64,000 bases of DNA from Hyaloraphidium curvatum. Its lineage: Eukaryota > Monoblepharomycota > Hyaloraphidiomycetes > Hyaloraphidiales > Hyaloraphidiaceae. The position numbers and the translations under genes were made by a program. Positions 8,212 through 56,545 of this stretch are shown here, one piece after another. The notes beneath the pieces are model-generated. The model did not search any database, was not told where the DNA came from, and saw only the letters and a program-made list of their open reading frames with translations. The stretch's first letter is position 1, and each line of letters begins with the position of its first letter. The stretch is from contig JAIVFI010000001.1 of the NCBI GenBank assembly GCA_025558095.1, positions 448,501 through 512,500 on the forward strand, in the 5' to 3' direction.

Positions 8212-11200
8212 ATGGCCCGGTGGCGCCCCCTCCTCGCGGCCATCGTGCTGCTTCCCTTCTCGCTCGCCCAGTATGTCCCTGGCGAGCTGTGCTGCCCGGG
8301 GTGCGCCTACTCCAATGCCCTGAACTGCTGCTGCGACCCGTCGCGGCCGCTCACGGCGGTGACTTCCACGGCCGTCACGACCGCGGCCGTGACGTCGACG
8401 ACGACACTCGTCTCGACCGTGCGGAGTTTCACGTCGACGACGACGCGGACGGTGACGGTCGCGGGCGACACCGCCCTGCTCAGGCTCGGGATGCTCGTTA
8501 GCGAGGGCGTGAGAGTGCCGCTGCCCGGCTCGGACCCGCCGGACGCGGGTGGGACGTCTACGGATGATTTTCTGTCGTCGGGGCGGTTCGGCATCGCCGG
8601 GGACAGGCTGGGGGGAGCCCGGGCGCCACCGCTGGAACGGGCGGTGACCCGGGAACGGAACGCCCGCCCGATACCCCTCCTCCGCAGTGGTCGCTGAAGG
8701 AGCTGCGCATCGGCTCGCTCGAAAGGGACAGACTGGGGATGAAGCGCCGCACCCTGAACGTGACATCTCTCGGGGCGCTGGCCGAAGGACCCCCGCCCGC
8801 ATCTGCCGACGGCCCCCGGCTCCAGCGCAGGCACCTGTGCGTCGACTGCCCCGACGACTTGGTCCTCGGCGCCTACCGGATGTTCTACGGCCGCACGGGC
8901 CGGGCGCGGCAGTCGGGCAGCGACGCGGTGGCGTGCTGCCCGGGGCGATCGACGACCACTGTGACCTCGACCGTGGTGGTCTTGGACCTGGCGACGGCGA
9001 CGCGGACCACCACGCTCGCGGGCGTGCGGACCACCTTTGTCACGGTGGTCCGGACCGCGACGTCGCGGAGCAGGACGACGTCAGCCACCAGGACGACGTC
9101 GACCTCGCGCACGCTGAGGACGGTTACGCAGCCCAACGTCATCGTGGGTCGTCCCTCTGCTGTGGGAAACTGATTCACCCTCGATTACTAACGTCTGACG
9201 CCTCCCGGGTCGCTTTGTGACAGACCCAGGTGCTCGCCGGCCGCGCCTTCTTCGACGTCAACGAGGACGGCGTTTACGATCCCGAGGTCGACATCCCCTA
9301 CGCCAACCAGCCCCTCGCCTTCCTCACCGGCCCCTCCGACCCCCCAGCCGACGAGGCCGGCACGACATTGACCGACGCCGAGGGGCTGTTCTCCGCCAGC
9401 GTCGCGGTCGCCCCCGACGCGTTCGTGTCGATCGCGCCGGCGGGGGACACGGGGAAGCCGTTCATGACCCTACAGGCGGATGCCAACGGGGTGGTGCCTG
9501 ACGGTGACCAGATTGAGCTGCCGGTGCCCGTGACGACGGTGCGTCGATCGGAGGTTTAAGGCGTGCAGGCCGTCGTCAGCTTACGTGCCATGTTGTCCCG
9601 CAGACCACGACCCCGTTCACCGCCACCACCAGCCCCACTGCCTCCAGCACGCTGACGACGTCGCGCACATCTACGATCTCGCTGACGCAGAGCCCGACCG
9701 CCTCGGTTACCCGGACGGCCACCGCAACGACCGGCACAGGGTCGACCACCACCACCTTGACCTCCGTGACGACCTCGTCCAGCCGGACAACAACCTTCGC
9801 TTCGATCACAATCTCCTCAGGTCTCCCCGTCTTTGTTGCCTGCCCCAACCTGCCCGCCTCGCAGGATGGCCGCTGCGGCGCCGACCCGGGCACCCGCTGC
9901 ACCGCCAACATCTGCTGCAGCTCCTCTGGTTTCTGCGAGGACGACGGCGGGGACAGCGGCGCCGCGTGGTGCGGGACGGGTTGCCAGCGGGGTTACGGAA
10001 AATGCTGGGCCAACGTCACCGACACCGACGGCTTCTCGTGCCCGACCTACACGCGGACCACGTCCGCCACTCGCACCACGCTGACGGACCTCACGACCAC
10101 CTTTGCCTCCATCACCCTCTCCTCGGGCACGCCCGTGTTTGTCCCCTGCCCCAACTATCCCTCCTGGACCGCATTGCCTCCCGAAGGATCCTACTCCGGG
10201 GACATGTGCGGGCCCCTACAGGGAATGGCCTGCCCAACGAACCTCTGCTGTGGGTCCCCGCCCGATGCCGTTGCCGATCCCGTAATCCTGTGTCCCCGCA
10301 GGTGCACGCAACGGGGCATGTCAGAACGACGGCGGCCAGGACGGCGAGGGATGGTGCGGGTCCCTGTGCCAGCGCGGTTGGGGAAAATGCTGGGCCAACG
10401 TCACCGATCCCGAGAGGTACTCGTGCACCCCCTGGACGACGAGGACGACGACGTCCACGCAGACGACGACGTTCGCTTCCATCACCTTTTCGGTGGTCAC
10501 CCCGGGGTTCGGAATCCCCGTGTTTGTGCCCTGCCCGAACGTACCGGGCAACAACGGCACGTCGCGGTGCGGCGTGGGGTTCGGCGTCGCGTGCACGAAC
10601 GAACTTTGCTGCTCCTCCGGTGGGTGTTTCGGACTGGGAGAAGGGACCGACGGAACCACCGCTCACGGCCCGGTTTGCTTCCAGGCGGGTTTTGCCAGGA
10701 CGACGGCGGCAACAACGGCGCGGCATGGTGCGATGCTGGCTGCCAGCGCGGCTACGGCAAATGCTGGGCCAATGTGACCGACCCGGACAACTACCCGTGT
10801 CCGCTTTTCACGAAGACGAGGTCGACGACGACTTCGGAGACCAGGACGACCTCCATTACCACGACGCCCTTCGTCCCCATAACTACTTCAAGCGGGGTAC
10901 CTGTCTTCCTCCCCTGCCCGGACGTGCCGGTGAGCACCACAAACAAGTGCGGGGACAACTTGGTGAGTTCGGGGCCAGGCGTTGCGTTCGCCGGCCTGCT
11001 CACCTTTGTGGCTCGCATAGTACCAGCGTTGCCCGGACGGGCTCTGCTGCTCCTCGGCAAACAACTGTCAGAACGACGGCGGAGACAACGGTGCCGCGTG
11101 GTGCGGTGCCGGGTGCCAGCGCGGTTACGGCAAGTGCTGGGCAAACGTGTCCGACCCCGAGAACTTTGCGTGCCCGCAAATCGCCACCTACACCCAATGC

Positions 11201-14513: not shown

Positions 14514-15569
14514 ATGGCGTTTCGAAGCCTTGCTGTCAGCGCTCTTGCACTCGTTGCCGTCGCAGTGGCCATCGCGGCCGCGGCCCCCGTCGACCCGAAC
14601 GCAACCGTGGCCAGCGCGGTCGCCGCACCCCGTGACCAGAACGTGACCGTAAGCTCCTCGATGCAACTTTACCGGTTGACGGAATTGACCCGACTCGGTG
14701 TGGGGCGGCACCACGCAGGCGTCCGTTGTCGTGCCGCGGGCGGCTTGCGGAACGAGCGCCGGCAACTTCTGGGCGTCCTGCAGCGGCGTCTCTCTTTCAT
14801 CCGGCGGCGTTCTCTCTGCCCAATGCCGCGGGTGCGACGGTAGAAGTCGCTCTACGTCCATCAATCTCAAGATGGTGGTGCGCAACACACAGGGGCAACT
14901 ATCGTTTCCTGGTACGGGGTTCACGTCGTCGTGCTACTCCATCAGGCTCTCGGGTATGTGTATACCATCGGGAACAGACGGACGGCCCCGCCGACGAACG
15001 CACGCCACCCCAGGGACGTACATGTCTTCCACGTGCAAAGACTCCAGCAGCAGGATCTACACCAGTTCCATCAACCTCAACACAATCATCACCAACTCTT
15101 GCGGCTCCCTTCGGGGCGTCACGGGCTGCACCGCATCCGGCACGAAGTCGTCTCCGACCTGCACCACCGGCCAAACCGGCGGCTTTGCTTACAGCTGTGA
15201 CAGTTTTCAGTTTTCAGCGGCGACCGGCGTACTTCGGGCCTATTGCCGCAAATGCAACGGATCGTATCAGTGGAGCTCGATCACCCTGAATTCGATCTTG
15301 AGCAACAAGCAGGGTCAGTTTTACTTCCCAGGGGCCAGCTTCCTTAACTCGTGCAGCCAAGTGACTCTTTCCGACAGTACGTATCGCTCGGTTTGGATCC
15401 CGCACCCACGTTTCTTACCGCCCATGCAGCAACGCTCAAAGGTACATGCAGGAATTCCGACGGTGCGGCGGTGAATACGATGGTGGGGCTGAATGCCCTC
15501 ATTGGGAATTCGTGCGGCAAACTCGTGGCTGCGTCTGGCTGTTCTCTGTCGGGCTATTCTCCTCCTTAG
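14514..15569 (+). CDS. Secreted cyanovirin-N-homology (CVNH) lectin, tandem repeats
   Basis: Four exons (14514-14648, 14719-14953, 15014-15376, 15430-15569) sum to 291 codons (290 residues). After a signal peptide (MAFRSLAVSALALVAVAVAI) come repeated CVNH half-domains: Cys, then a strand reading LSAQCRGCDG, then TSINLKMVVRNTQGQLSF. The pattern recurs as LRAYCRKCNG with SSITLNSILSNKQGQFYF and as LKGTCRNSDG with MVGLNALIGNSCGKL. CVNH proteins bind mannose-rich glycans, and fungal members are well known. The introns fall at domain or repeat borders. A small CTGCTGCC/GGCAGCAG palindrome lies in the 3' flank (15639-15658). A surface or self/non-self recognition role is an inference. Confidence 0.85.
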
Positions 15570-17107: not shown

Positions 17108-20068
17108 TCACGCGCTCTTCAGCTTTGCGACCAGCTCCTTGGCCAGCCCTACGACCGCAGGCACGTCCACCACCGTGTCCGAGTAGATCCTGTACAGCCA
17201 CGACGGGTCGTAGCAGCACACGTGCGGCGCCACCCAGCGCAGCCCCTGAATGCGGCGGGCGTCGTCCTCGGGGAGGTGCGTCAGGCCACCCTTGCTCGGC
17301 GGCGCGCTCTCGGGCGGCACCGTGGCTTTTTCGTCGTGGTTCTCCCACGTTCCGTAGGCGAACCCGCGCAGCTCGGCCATGCGGCGGTACACGCGGTACT
17401 CGCTCGAGTTGACGCCGTACGGGAACATCTCCAGGATCGCCGCGCGTTCCGCCAGCATCGCCAGGCCGAGCATCGAACCGTGCATCCCCACGATCAGGTC
17501 CGCAGAACGGAGCAGCGCGACGAGCTCCCTGGGCCCGTGGGTCTCGAGGGCGACCGCCTCGACCGCGTGGTCGGGGAAGGCGTCGGCCAGGCCGGCGGCC
17601 AGCACGCGCTCGTTGAGGATCAGCCGGTCCGACCTGCGGGCAAAGAGGAGCACGCGGGGCTTCGCGGGCGGCGCGGGACCGGGGTCGGCGAGCACGCGGC
17701 GGGCGAGGAACTCGGCTGCGCGCGACGCGGCGGCGGCCTTGCGAGACAGGTCGGCCGAATCATCGTCCACGGGGCGCTGCGGTGCGTACAGGCCGTAGTC
17801 GTACCACACCGTGTCGCGGCGCAGGCCGACCACGGCGTCCTTCCAGACGTGCACCGATCCATCCGCCGCGGCCGCCCGGAGCGAAAAGTCGCGGGCCTTG
17901 AACGAGGATGCGAGTACGGCAAGGTCGTCCGTGCCGGCGGATGCGGGGGGCAACTTGCGCAGCCAGTATCGCTCCAGTGCCGTGCGGCCTGAAGGATCCT
18001 CGCGATGATCTGCGGCGACAAAGTCGACGCCGTGCAGGCCGGGTTCCTCGTCGCCGAACGCATCGGGAGAAAACTCGGCGACGGTGGCCAGCAGCGGAAG
18101 CACGTCATCGTGGAGCAGGTGAAAGACGTTGGAGGGAAGGAAGCGCGAGAAGAAGTGCGTGCGGCGGTCGTGCGAAACCACACTGCCGGTCGGCACGGTC
18201 TCTTCGACACCGACCACGAACTTGAAGTTGGCGTGTCCCGCGATCGATCCGGCGTCCGTCAGGTACAGCTGTTTCGGGAGCGCTGCGGCCTTGGGCGAGA
18301 CGAGGAAGAATCCGGCGTCCTTGCTATAGTACAGGTTCTCGATCTTGCACACGGGGTTCTTTCCGTCCGCGGCGTCGACGCAGTCGACCGTGGAGGTCCC
18401 CGAAAGCTCGTCGGTCTTGGGCGGAAACGCGGCGGCGAGGTCGCTCCTGGCCAGGCGCGGCGCAGGCGTAGCCACGGGGCGGATGTCGACCCTGAACGGG
18501 ATTCGAAGGTGAGCGCGGACGGATCGGGCGGGGCGGAGGACAACCCACGTTCCCATGGTCGCGACGATGCCCATGGTGGGAGCAGCGGCAAGAGTTTGAA
18601 AAGCGCCGATGGTAGGAAGGGCAGTGCCGAGCAAGCTGGCGCGGAAATCGATCGGCGCTGCGCGGGACGAGGCGGATGGGGCACCACTCACGTGCCCATG
18701 GGGTCCATGGAGGCCGCGCCCAGGGTGTGGTCGGCGCCGAGGGTTCGGGACGCGGCCAGGGTGTGATCGGCGGCGAGCGTGCGCGCGGCGCCCAAGGTGT
18801 GGGCCGCGCCCAGGGTTCGGACGGCGCCGAGGGTGTAATCTGCTCCGAGGGTCTGCACCGCGGCAAGCGTCCGAGCAGCTCCGAGCGGGGGCGCTGCACC
18901 CAGGGTCCGAGCAATACCGAGGGTCTGCGCGTCCCCGAGGGTCTCGAGAGCACCCAGGGTCAGAGCCGCACCCAGGTACGTGCGAGCGACGTCAAGGGTG
19001 GCTTCGGTGCTGGTGCGCGTGGAATCGATCAGTATCCTGCGGGAGCAAACGGGCCGCAAATCACCCACGCGCCGAAGGTCTGGGCCGCACCCAGGATTTG
19101 AGCCGCATCAAGGGTGTATGCCGCGCCAAGGGTGTGCTCCACGCCGAGGGTGTGAGCCGTGCCGAGCGTCCGATCTGCACCAAGTGTGTGCGCAGCGCCG
19201 AGGGTGTGATCCGCACCGAGGGTCCGAGCCGCACCGACGGTCAGGACCGCGCCGGGAGTTTGAGCCGCACCAAGCGTATAAGCCGCACCGACGGTACGAT
19301 CAGCACCCAGGGTGTGAGCCGGACCCAGGGTGCGAGCGACGCCAAGGGTGGCTTCGGCACTGGCGCGGCAATCGATCAGCAGTGGCGCGAACAAAGCACA
19401 TTGACGCCACCCACGCGCCCAGGGTGTGCACTGCGCCGAGGGTTTGAGCCGCGCCAATGGTCTCGGCAGCGCCCAGCGTGCGTGCCGCGCCGAGGGTGGC
19501 ACCGAGGGTGAAATCAGCACCGAGCGTGCAACCAGCGCTGCCGCGGCGAACGATCAGCGTCCCGCTCCGGCGGGAAAGAACGGGCGGAATTACATTCCCA
19601 CGGTGGCGTCGCTGCTGGCGAGATCGGACGCCGATTCGCCGTGAGGGGTAGGCGGCGTTGGTCACGGTCTGGCCGGCCGGGCGGGCCATGCACCTACCCC
19701 GTCGGCGTGGCCTTCAGCGTGCCGGCGAGTGTGCGGGCGATCTCCAGAGTGTGATCCCACGCAATGCCGCGGCCGGCCGTATCGCCGGAGGGGGGTTCCT
19801 GGGTGGCCGGCGGGCCGAGTTCGGCGGCGGCGGCGAAGCGGACTGCCGCGTGCGCGCCCGCCCGGGCGAGTGCGGCCTCCGCGGTGCCGTTGGCGACGAA
19901 ATAAGCATTCTTCCGCACGGTTTCCAGCGCCGCCGCCGCGCCGTCGGGCGCGCGGCCGAGGTGCGGCGCGCGCCACCCGGCCGCGGCGAGGTCCGAACCG
20001 CCGGGCGCCGCGCCGCGCCCAGCGAGGACAAAGGCGAGCGGGAGGAGGGCGAGCAGGCGGAGCGCCAT
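17108..20068 (-). CDS. GT61-family glycosyltransferase with hexapeptide-repeat stalk
   Basis: Seven exons (20068-19698, 19614-19594, 19537-19415, 19359-19069, 19009-18692, 18635-18549, 18491-17108) give exactly 865 codons. All introns are phase 2, and every internal exon is a multiple of three. Residues 1-20 (MALRLLALLPLAFVLAGRGA) form a signal peptide or anchor. The internal exons encode about 45 six-residue repeats of the type T-L-G-A-x-x. The last exon is a GT61 domain (DUF563; EOGT/POMGNT2-like) with RVLLFARRSDRLILNE and DLIVGMHGSMLGLAMLAE. GT61 enzymes add xylose, arabinose or GlcNAc in the secretory pathway. The repeat part probably acts as a stem. The 21-nt microexon is the weakest element. 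Confidence 0.8.
18549..19537 (-). repeat. 18-bp coding minisatellite inside the GT61 gene
   Basis: An 18-bp unit (minus strand, ACCCTGGGTGCGGCACAC type, variable at the last six bases) is repeated head to tail within four exons. The introns that interrupt it share similar 3' ends (GATCGAT followed by CCGCGCCAG), so exon-plus-intron units were duplicated. Confidence 0.85.
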
Positions 20069-20592: not shown

Positions 20593-22496
20593 TCATCCTC
20601 GCCGCGTGACCGTGACCGTCCTCGCCGCCCTCGTCACCGTCACCGTCCGCACGGCCGTCCGCGCCGCCTTAGTCACCGTAACCGTCCGCACGGCTTTCAG
20701 CCTCGCCGGCGCCGACACCGTGACCGTTACGGTGGCGGTGGGATTGCACACGGCCGTGGTCGCGGGCGCCTTGGTCGTGGTCGGCGCGGGGGCCTTGGTC
20801 GTGGTCGGCGCGGGGGCCTTGCTCGTCGTCGGAGCTGGCGCCTTGGTCGTCGTAGGCGCGGGCGCCTTGGTCGTCGTCGCGCCCGCCGGCGCGAGGTTGA
20901 ACAGCAGGCACCACCGCAGCAGCACCCCCTTGTCCTGCGCCGCCTGGTCCGTCAGGGTGAGCCGCCAGGTGCCCTCGGCCGACGCCCCCGCGAACCCGGA
21001 CAGCGGCTGCGCGGGCTTGGCCGAGGCCGAGGGGGCGCACGCGAACGAGGACGCGGCCGAGTCGTCGAACACCGTGTCGTACCGCTGCGGCGTGGAGCAG
21101 CTCGCCGGGCGGGCAAACAGGCTCGCCGTGCGGGGGTTGCTAATGCGTTGGAGGGTCGCCGAGACGTCGTTGGGCCAGGTGTGGTTCCACGCGACCTGCA
21201 CGTCCAGGTCGGCGACGGTGCCGGCGCCGGCGGGCACGACGATGTCGGACGAGACGGTGCTGACGTCGGGGATCTCGGCGTTGGGGGTGGCGCAGAACGA
21301 GCCGGGGCGGACGGTGGTCGTCGTGCGCTGACGTTGGAGGGGGGATGTCAGCTGCTGCATTGCACGACGCGCATGCACGGTAAACGCACCGTCTGGGTGG
21401 TCTGGGACTTGGTCGACGTCCTGGACGCCGAGGTCGTCGTCGGGCCCTTTGTCGACGAGCTCCGCGTCGACGTCGTCCGCGTCGTCGAGGTCGTCTGCGT
21501 CGTGGTGGTCCCCACCACCGCGTACCCGCCGTTGGCCGCCACCTGCCCGTCGATCCACGCCGCCAGCGCGCTCACGCGGGAGTACACCCCCGCCGCGGTT
21601 GCGCACCCGTTGCCCCAGGAGGTGATCCCCACCTGCACAAACTGCCCGTTGACGGTCGCGAACAAGGGCCCCCCGGAGTCGCCCTGGCACGTGTCGCGGC
21701 CGTCCCCGCGCCCGGCGCACATTCCCGTCGCGTAGTCCGCCGAGCCGTCCGCGTACCCCGCGTTCCTGCACTCCGCGGGGGTGAGGTACGGCAGGTCCAC
21801 CTCGAGCAGCGAATCCGAGGTGGATCCGCCCGAGGAGGTCGTGCCGAAGCCGATGGCCTTGAGCGTGTCCCCCTGCGCGGGGAAGGACGCGTTGCGGTTC
21901 AGCTGCACGTAGGCGGGGCGGTAGGTCCCGTCGCCGGCGTTGGCGCCCGTGGGGGGGTTGAGGATGATGAGGGCGACGTCGTTGGCCATCGTGCCGGAGT
22001 TGTACTGCGGGTGCTGTATGACCGTTCGGCCTGCAAGATGGGTCAGCGCCCGGACAGGAGCGGCAGAAATGCCACACACCGGTGTAAACGATGTCCTGGG
22101 ACGTGTCCTGGCTGCGGCGCAGGCGGTACGTGACGGCGGTCCAGCTGGGGCCGGTGGTGCCGACGACGCAGTGCGCGGCGGTGAGGAGGATGTTCGGGGC
22201 GATCAGGCTGCCGCCGCAGCTGCGACGGGGGAGGCGTCAGCTGAGTTCTAGCAGTCCGCAGGAGCGACTCACAGGAAGGACGAGGTGATGACGGCGAAGA
22301 AGGGGTAGGAGGAAGGCGACGGCACCGCCGAGCCGCCGACGATGCGCTGCGGCCCCTCGCCGGGCCCGCCGCCGACGGCCACCGCCGCGTCGCGATCTGC
22401 AAACAGCTGCCGCGGGTACTGCCGCGGCGCCGCGGCCGCCGGGTGCGCGAGGGCGGCGGCCGCGAGGAGCACCGCCAGCGCCGCGAGGGCCGGCAT
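20593..22496 (-). CDS. Secreted trypsin-like serine protease fused to a P-domain
   Basis: Four exons (22496-22273, 22219-22080, 22030-21390, 21327-20593) sum to 580 codons. A signal peptide (MPALAALAVLLAAAALAHP) and a short propeptide precede the activation site QRIVGGSA. The triad is present: LTAAHCVV (His), NDVALIIL (Asp) and DTCQGDSGGPL (Ser). The Asp six residues before the Ser predicts Arg/Lys specificity. After a Thr-rich linker comes a P/Homo-B-like domain (GTWRLTLTDQAAQDKGVLLR), then five KAPAPTTT-type repeats and a tail of TVTVT strands ending in RRG. S1-P-domain fusions are uncommon in fungi. The enzyme is probably secreted or wall-bound. Confidence 0.85.
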
Positions 22497-55458: not shown

Positions 55459-56179
55459 GCGGGGACAAGCGGGAGGACGGCGAGAAGGCTCGGGCCGCGC
55501 CGCGTGCGCTCAACGCACAGGTTCAGCGCATGCAATCAGAATCAATATCAGAAATGAATTCCAACGGCTTCGGATCTTCGGCAACTAGAATCTACAACCA
55601 ACGATGCGATGGATGGCCCGTTTGACATCCGCCGATGGACCGGGGCGGCACTGGGTAGATAGTCCAACTACCGGTCTGCGGACATCCTTCCCGCGCCTTC
55701 GGCACGTACCAAACATTGCGCCAATCGTATCCGAGGCTTGTACGGGGCACAGGTGTCAAGGGAGGGCCTGAAGTGCCACGGAAGCGTTTCGCTCGCTGGG
55801 GACAGCAGGGTCAGCCGTCCCTGGATGGATCTGGACACCGCGGGGCCCCGACCGCCGGCCTCGGCGGACGCTCGGAATCGCCCTCGACGCAAAATGGTCT
55901 GTAAGGGGCCGCGGACAGGCGGATCATGCGCCGGCTTGGTGCTCCGAGGTGGAGCGGCCAGCCCGCACTTCCGGGAAGCGTCACTCCCCCGGCACCCTCA
56001 GTGTGCCTTCGAGGTTCTTCCAGTAGAAAGGCCGAATGCGCCAAGGGGTGGAAACAGCCGGATTCGCCGCGCGAAGCGCGATGCGGCGGGCTGCCGATCC
56101 CGCCCCGCGCACGGCCGGTATATGGCTGCACCATGCCTCCCAGACATCCGCACGCCCCCTCCATGACCGAGAAGCGAGG
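55459..56179. other. Intergenic, nothing recognised
   Basis: Between the MYND gene and tRNA-Ile. No gene or repeat recognised. Confidence 0.4.
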
Positions 56180-56254
56180 CCCGTTTAGCTCAGTTGGTTA
56201 GTAGCGTCGTGCTAATAACGCGAAGGTCGCAGGTTCGACCCCTGCAATGGGCAG
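56180..56254 (+). tRNA. tRNA-Ile (anticodon AAU)
   Basis: The acceptor stem GCCCGTT pairs with AATGGGC. The anticodon arm TCGTG-CTAATAA-CGCGA carries AAT (AAU), and the T arm is GCAGG-TTCGACC-CCTGC. The D arm has an extra T (GTTAGTAGC where GTTAGAGC is usual), leaving three of four D-stem pairs. No intron is present. A T run just downstream (CTTTTTGG, about 56260) fits a Pol III terminator. Confidence 0.92.
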
Positions 56255-56545
56255 ACAAACTTTTTGGATGCCCATTTCGCCCAGGGAGTTCCCGGGATGT
56301 GGGCGGCGGGCCTCCGGCCCGCCCGCCTCCCCTGCGAAACCCTACCCGCGCGGACGCTCGGTCGCAGGTCGACCCCTGCAATGGGCAGACAAACTTTTTG
56401 GATGCCCATTTCGCCCAGGGAGTTCCCGGGATGTGGGCGGCGGGCCTCCGGCCCGCCCGCCTCCCCTGCGAAACCCTATCCGCGCGGACGCTCGCCCTGC
56501 AATGGGCAGACAAACTTTTTGGACCTATCCGCGCGGACGCCTATA
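56231..56545 (+). repeat. Tandem copies of the tRNA-Ile 3' end and its downstream flank
   Basis: The block from the T arm, through AATGGGCAGACAAACTTTTT and a GC-rich palindrome (GCGGGCCTCCGGCCCGC), to CGCGCGGACGCTCG is repeated. CCTGCA occurs at 56242, 56375 and 56496, giving periods of 133 and 121 bp. Later copies have only part of the T arm, so they are not tRNA genes, although each keeps the T-run terminator. Confidence 0.9.

Follow-up and report, generated by a model that had tools for sequence, protein, structure and literature searches.

A predicted POMGNT2-like GT61 glycosyltransferase of Hyaloraphidium curvatum with a probable stalk of T-L-G-A-x-x repeats

POMGNT2, also named GTDC2, is an animal protein O-mannose beta-1,4-GlcNAc transferase of family GT61, whose members use an inverting mechanism. 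Its C-terminal part is a fibronectin type III (FnIII) domain, and it is not known to have a repeat stalk. The hexapeptide consensus of the left-handed beta-helix is [LIV]-[GAED]-x-x-[STAV]-x. Dystroglycan enzymes are treated in PMC8478517; little literature was found on POMGNT2-like GT61 enzymes outside animals, and a TLGA array is not named in the titles or abstract openings found by the searches done.

The window, i.e. the whole stretch of 64,000 nucleotides that was analysed, belongs to the GC-rich, 31.9-Mb genome of H. curvatum, which consists of 55 contigs. It includes a minus-strand gene, named here the GT61/TLGA gene, that probably encodes a POMGNT2-like secretory GT61 enzyme in which a spacer (stalk) of about 270 residues, made of T-L-G-A-x-x repeats, is located between a signal-peptide-like exon 1 and the catalytic domain. 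Exons and introns were predicted from splice signals and reading frame (Table 1). The gene starts with an ATG at 20068 and its TGA ends at 17108, in agreement with a previous reading of this DNA made from the letters alone (the sequence-only reading); the 865 codons given there were not reproduced, the six predicted exons coding for 857 amino acids plus the stop (858 codons). Two other features of that reading were confirmed: the five introns, all GT-AG, are in phase 2, and the four internal exons have sizes divisible by three. Each internal exon ends by breaking a codon after T/P-x-G, within the following Ala or Thr codon. As intron 5 lacks stop codons and is a multiple of three, it could be retained in frame. 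The N-terminus encoded by exon 1 resembles a signal peptide when judged by eye, and the most hydrophobic 15-residue stretches of the whole protein begin at residues 1-3; two faint T-x-x units are found close to the 3' end of this exon.

Table 1. Predicted exons and introns of the GT61/TLGA gene, in coordinates of the window
Feature	Position	Strand	Size (nt)	Characteristics
Exon 1	19698..20068	-	371	Hydrophobic N-terminus MALRLLALLPLAFVLAG; then about 100 aa without Pfam match
Intron 1	19538..19697	-	160	Phase 2
Exon 2	19415..19537	-	123	41 aa, 6 TLG; earliest clear portion of the TLGAxx array
Intron 2	19360..19414	-	55	Phase 2; CTGATCGATT close to 3' end
Exon 3	19069..19359	-	291	97 aa, 10 TLG; TLGAxx array
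Intron 3	19010..19068	-	59	Phase 2; copy of intron 2
Exon 4	18692..19009	-	318	106 aa, 10 TLG; 5' end a near-copy of the exon 3 5' end
Intron 4	18636..18691	-	56	Phase 2; similar to introns 2 and 3
Exon 5	18549..18635	-	87	29 aa, degenerate hexads; 0 TLG, 4 T-[LIVMFYP]-[GADE]
Intron 5	18492..18548	-	57	Phase 2; unlike introns 2 and 3
Exon 6	17108..18491	-	1384	GT61 catalytic domain, POMGNT2-like, and stop codon

The neighbour of the GT61 gene includes a trypsin-like domain (PF00089; 21348-22202, minus strand) within an open frame (20593-22236, minus strand) that has TTTKAPAP and TVTVT repeats at its end. Cyanovirin-N homology (CVNH) domains are found in three stretches at 14689-15474 on the plus strand (whole frame E 1e-27). 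The tRNA-Ile(AAT) gene at 56179-56253 overlaps a 134-nt unit that occurs twice with 98% identity (56225-56494); a duplication of the 3' part of this gene together with its downstream flank seems to have taken place.

The assignment to GT61 made in the sequence-only reading was upheld: Pfam family PF04577 (GT61) matched the whole protein with 41.3 bits and exon 6 alone with 42.1 bits, against a curated cut-off of 27. When exon 6 was compared with solved structures, 8 distinct sequences were matched; the closest were the POMGNT2 chains 6xi2_D (E 1.3e-46) and 7e9j_A (E 1.1e-45), and EOGT (9wjk_A) was found with E 3.2e-5. The catalytic part shares with POMGNT2 the stretches RLILNE, MHGSML, EMFPYGVN and CCYDPSWLYRIYSDT. 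The best stretch aligned positions 211-455 of the 460-residue exon 6 query with positions 177-419 of the 533-residue chain. The POMGNT2 chain continues to 533, whereas the protein described here ends 5 residues past the matched part; since the match stops at POMGNT2 residue 419 near the end of this protein, the POMGNT2 C-terminal part is missing. The gene product is a predicted secretory-pathway GT61 glycosyltransferase of the POMGNT2-like branch. Homologues of the PMT O-mannosyltransferases (PF02366) are present in the genome (10 matches, counted exon by exon), and as a consequence an O-mannose acceptor would be possible for the predicted enzyme. GT61 itself gave 23 matches in the genome, 21 of them above cut-off; contig C2 has seven, of which three are clustered within 303-332 kb, and four matches lie in frames longer than 1,000 amino acids.

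The array occupies residues 105-396 and includes 20 exact TLGA and 39 relaxed T-[LIVMFP]-[GAD]-[AVITPLD] matches, compared with a mean of 0.25 and a maximum of 3 TLGA in 2,000 residue shuffles. A profile path through it consists of 55 pieces, 40 of which are complete hexads. Over these 40 the first position, Thr, is the most conserved (37), followed by Leu (33), Gly (31) and Ala (30); the fifth and sixth positions are variable, mainly A/D/V and R/H/Q. Several units are shortened to four residues (TLGA without the last two), which makes the period imperfect, and the longest hexad-spaced runs of T-[LIVMF]-[GA] are 9 units in exon 4 and 7 in exon 3. The count of about 45 copies in four exons proposed earlier is thus fair, except that the contribution of exon 5 is weak: this exon has no exact TLG and includes degenerate units only. 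As for composition, the 272 residues counted include 45 Thr (17%), 2 Ser and 7 Pro.

The GT61 part was used to search 5.8 billion proteins, scores being computed for the 7,989 candidates with most words in common. At E 1e-3 this gave two relatives, the unnamed proteins P0001 and P0002 (source tag lgn), with 46% and 43% identity, respectively, over 96-97% of the queried part. As in the protein described here, both have a low-complexity stalk immediately N-terminal to the GT61 domain, and this location strengthens the interpretation of the array as a stalk. Their stalks differ in being shorter and Thr/Ser-rich (Thr+Ser 61% and 46%) and in having no TLGA-type run; with segment bounds chosen by eye, the composition is 42% Thr and 19% Ser in P0001, and 36% Thr, 15% Ala and 10% Ser in P0002. 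Both also have an additional N-terminal part, which in P0001 is SdrD_B-like at E 0.15 only, below the cut-off, and in P0002 resembled no family; exon 1 showed no likeness to these N-terminal domains. The N-terminal part of P0001 found 10 further matches in the H. curvatum genome, six of which were read as frames. In four of these (L043-L046) it is followed by long S/T-rich tandem-repeat stalks, L047 has a shorter S/T/P-rich stretch, and L048 has none in the frame read. Since repetitive stalks recur in this genome, the unusual part of the present one is its T-L-G-A-x-x composition. The array is best read as a spacer built of repeats that takes the place of a mucin-like stalk.

The stalks of L044, L045 and L046 (contigs C20, C31 and C16) are very regular and S/T-rich, e.g. 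(S-E-S-Q-S-L-T-A-T-T)n. In the region 9254-10400 of the window (plus strand), positions 9254-9571 match the N-terminal part of P0001 with one internal stop and are followed by Thr-rich stretches and by a cysteine-rich, chitin-binding-like segment at 9841-10050 (PF00187, 20.4 bits, below the cut-off of 27.8).

A spacer of this kind could take the form of a regular strand-rich rod or of an extended chain, both being possible. An extended, flexible, O-glycosylated chain, in which Thr, recurring at every sixth residue, stands in for the dense Thr/Ser stalk seen in the relatives, is a tentative proposal that agrees with the place of the stalks in P0001 and P0002, with the 10 PMT matches in the genome and with Thr being the best kept position of the hexad (37 of 40). 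It does not account for the retention of Leu, Gly and Ala (33, 31 and 30 of 40), which plain O-glycan spacing would not need, and Ser and Pro are scarce.

The other form, a beta-solenoid whose hexapeptide is of another type than that of the left-handed beta-helix, with Leu and Ala at alternate positions pointing inward to give a rigid rod, is likewise a tentative proposal. With three hexads per turn such a rod would have about 15 turns. The six-residue period, with T-L-G-A conserved and the last two positions variable, is in favour of a solenoid, although truncated TLGA units interrupt it at several places. LpxD/GlmU/CysE-type left-handed beta-helix proteins share with the array this period and the use of aliphatic and small residues, but their consensus is absent: in one register none of 39 hexads conformed to it, and in each of the five others none of 31. 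Neither exon 3 nor exon 4 matched any Pfam family up to E 10, and therefore no hexapeptide family (HMMER filters drop most matches above about 0.1). Both results agree with the statement of the sequence-only reading that the unit does not match the hexapeptide of the left-handed beta-helix, although it resembles it. The structure predictions, proposed at that time as the check for a beta-solenoid, point in two directions. AlphaFold2 modelled exon 3 together with exons 2 and 4 as short strands about every six residues, at a mean pLDDT of 43, and Foldseek found 43 matches to this strand model, mostly left-handed beta-helix acyltransferases, all with E of at least 1.7 and TM-scores of at most 0.32. 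Exon 4 alone was modelled as two helices at pLDDT 72, three of the five models being below 40; a Gly every six residues would argue against a long helix. Comparison of exon 3 with PDB sequences gave 9 weak matches, 6 of them to left-handed beta-helix enzymes (E 0.54-4.3). The best match among solved structures was chain 0q of 9e5c, a LIM zinc-binding domain-containing protein (array profile E 5.8e-9, exon 3 E 0.0041), which has an 18-residue repeat equal to three hexads and is rich in Ala, Thr, Glu and Val; it differs in being Glu-rich and without TLGA, no stretch exceeds 14.6 bits, and the match is probably compositional. NCBIfam matches to exon 3 (E 0.0005 and 0.03) were far under their cut-offs and were discarded. 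Whatever its form, the array could also serve for binding rather than spacing.

The distribution of the array was analysed in the genome and in sequence collections. Exon 3, when searched against the genome up to E 10, had 9 matches, of which 5 are in the GT61/TLGA gene (one antisense) and one is on C26 (E 0.42). Two overlapping matches on C19 (E 4.9e-7 and 0.49) were rejected as the antisense of a Lys/Ala-rich frame of AAAPKK type that resembles H1 when judged by eye. One on C5 (E 0.015), where frames of at least 80 amino acids include no array, was also rejected. A six-frame scan covered 19 of the 22 other GT61 loci of the genome, 7 of the frames meeting the locus edge (L008, L012, L013, L017, L018, L020 and L021). 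No such array was found in these 19, the maximum being two hexad-spaced T-[LIVMF]-[GA] in a row, so GT61 enzymes do not in general require one. Scans for close relatives with six exon 3 peptide patterns confirmed 0 of 26 stretches in viral contigs and 0 of 406 in prokaryote genomes. Residues 100-396 found no protein at E 1e-3 (7,995 candidates scored), and exon 3 alone found two at E up to 10 (3,414 candidates scored), P0003 and P0004. The first (E 0.085) has a hexad-spaced run of only 1 and was treated as a chance match.

P0004 (E 0.64) is an unnamed protein of 178 amino acids with source tag ena. Its residues 6 to about 60 form a [TSAP]-L-[GR]-A-x-x array with 45% identity to exon 3 over 56 residues, including ten successive in-register [TSAP]-L hexads, a result reached in 0 of 1,000 shuffles. 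All 11 Leu of its first 80 residues are in one register, which places a Leu in 11 of the approximately 13 hexads; the period is therefore found outside the GT61/TLGA gene as well, a point in favour of a solenoid. It differs from the GT61/TLGA product in having neither GT61 nor any Pfam domain, and the strict T-[LIVMF]-[GA] never recurs at six residues. If it is a real gene, it is possibly a relative of the array or a parallel case. A more ambitious proposal is that T-L-G-A-x-x represents an undescribed hexapeptide solenoid, a rigid rod that recurs outside this gene, as in P0004, with exon copying or alternative splicing setting the rod length and thus an adjustable reach of the GT61 enzyme; taken as a whole we consider it unlikely.

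That the array is coding, and joined to GT61, was analysed without an alignment by determining the identity of bases 18 nt apart in exons 2-5. Identity was 190/249 (76%), 155/249 (62%) and 107/249 (43%) at codon positions 1, 2 and 3, respectively, and the difference between positions 1+2 and position 3 is significant with sites treated as independent (chi-square, p 7e-12); the background in the GT61 exon is 29%, 27% and 36%. The third position was the least matched in each of the four array exons, with only 23 codons compared in exon 5. This pattern points to selection on the amino acids in the TLGA frame. Exons 2-4 are free of stops in the coding frame, whereas one or two interrupt 5 of the 6 alternative frames of the same strand. 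Among the antisense frames of these exons 5 of 9 are open and 4 have stops; antisense coding was nevertheless rejected because the third-position pattern fits the TLGA frame. Furthermore, a single stop-free frame runs from exon 5 through intron 5 into exon 6, so the degenerate units of exon 5 are in an unbroken frame with GT61 and the membership of the array in the GT61 gene does not depend on splicing alone. Together with the codon-position test, this bears out the earlier view that array and GT61 domain are translated together. As far as the bases can tell, the comparison shows that the array is translated in the TLGA frame and that selection acts on its T, L, G and A. It is therefore very improbable that the array is a non-functional minisatellite open by accident, or a separate transcript or skipped exon set, as might be thought from its tandem 18-nt units, from the phases, all 2, that let exons 2-5 be skipped with the frame kept, from the lack of a close homologue in the protein, viral-contig and prokaryote-genome searches and from the open antisense frames, when codon position 3 is the most variable one in all four exons, the other same-strand frames are mostly interrupted and exon 5 shares its frame with GT61.

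The sequence-only reading had also proposed that exons and introns were copied together. The junction exon 2/intron 2/exon 3 is 72% identical over 134 nt to the junction exon 3/intron 3/exon 4 (E 5.6e-14); the match covers the intronic CTGATCGATT, and from the exonic GAAGCC onward 25 of 26 bases are identical. A whole-genome search with the exon 3/4 junction found the exon 2/3 junction and itself, with no third site (2 candidates scored). Intron similarity was also judged against a null of 1,500 pairs, drawn at random from 27 stretches of the window that look like introns, a small set in which the real introns are included. The pairs 2-3, 2-4 and 3-4 outscored 99.4%, 99.9% and 98.1% of the random pairs. 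The scores of intron 5 with introns 2 and 3 were reached by 37% of them, and that with intron 4 by 4%; for the last 60 nt of intron 1 the value was 1.3% against intron 3, compared with 13-18% against introns 2 and 4. Joint copying is thus seen for intron 2-exon 3 and intron 3-exon 4, and is less clear for exon 4-intron 4-exon 5: introns 2 to 4 are alike, yet this junction is absent from the matches of the exon 3/4-junction search. Hexad registers of exons 3 and 4, when compared, gave values of 0.61-0.66 at offsets -4 to 4 (overall 0.62). With no special offset, either unit turnover has erased the internal order or the copy was local to the border. The copies cross the exon-intron borders, as would be the case for a tandem-repeat stalk generated by exon-intron duplication.

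The common 3' end of the introns, on which the proposal of copying had been based, is a weaker argument. GATCGAT is found close to the 3' end of introns 2, 3 and 4 (3/5) and CCGCGCCAG is exact in introns 2 and 4 (2/5); introns 1 and 3 have variants of the latter, and both sequences are absent from intron 5. Since GATCGAT occurs 24 times in both strands of the window, compared with 7.3 expected, it is weak evidence by itself. Furthermore, CTGATCGATT followed by CAG within 12 bases occurs 14 times in the genome, 12 of them outside the GT61/TLGA gene (reversed pattern, 0). GATCGAT alone was consequently rejected as proof of copying, and CTGATCGATT may be a branch-site motif.

Growth of the array could have occurred by slippage of the 18-nt unit plus copying of an exon-intron segment. 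In the product the array would keep the catalytic domain off its anchor or partner, as the stalks of the relatives would, and the symmetric phase 2-2 exons would permit changes in stalk length by gain, loss or skipping of exons without frameshift. The locus thus presents a regular hexapeptide array, supported by selection, at the place where the enzyme's relatives have stalks of low complexity, and the copying of exons and introns is still readable in it. It could be used as a test case for the origin and length change of glycosyltransferase stalk regions, and if the array is folded it would represent an additional class of repeat among hexapeptide proteins.

The array can be compared with the stalks, mucin-like or made of tandem repeats, that are found in proteins of the surface and cell wall and likewise consist of tandem repeats between a secretion signal and a functional domain. 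In contrast to these, only 47 of its 272 residues are Thr or Ser, and its poverty in Ser and Pro, with Thr at 17%, means that it is not a mucin stalk. An enzyme with a repetitive stalk is an already known kind of protein; the T-L-G-A-x-x composition of this one is unusual.
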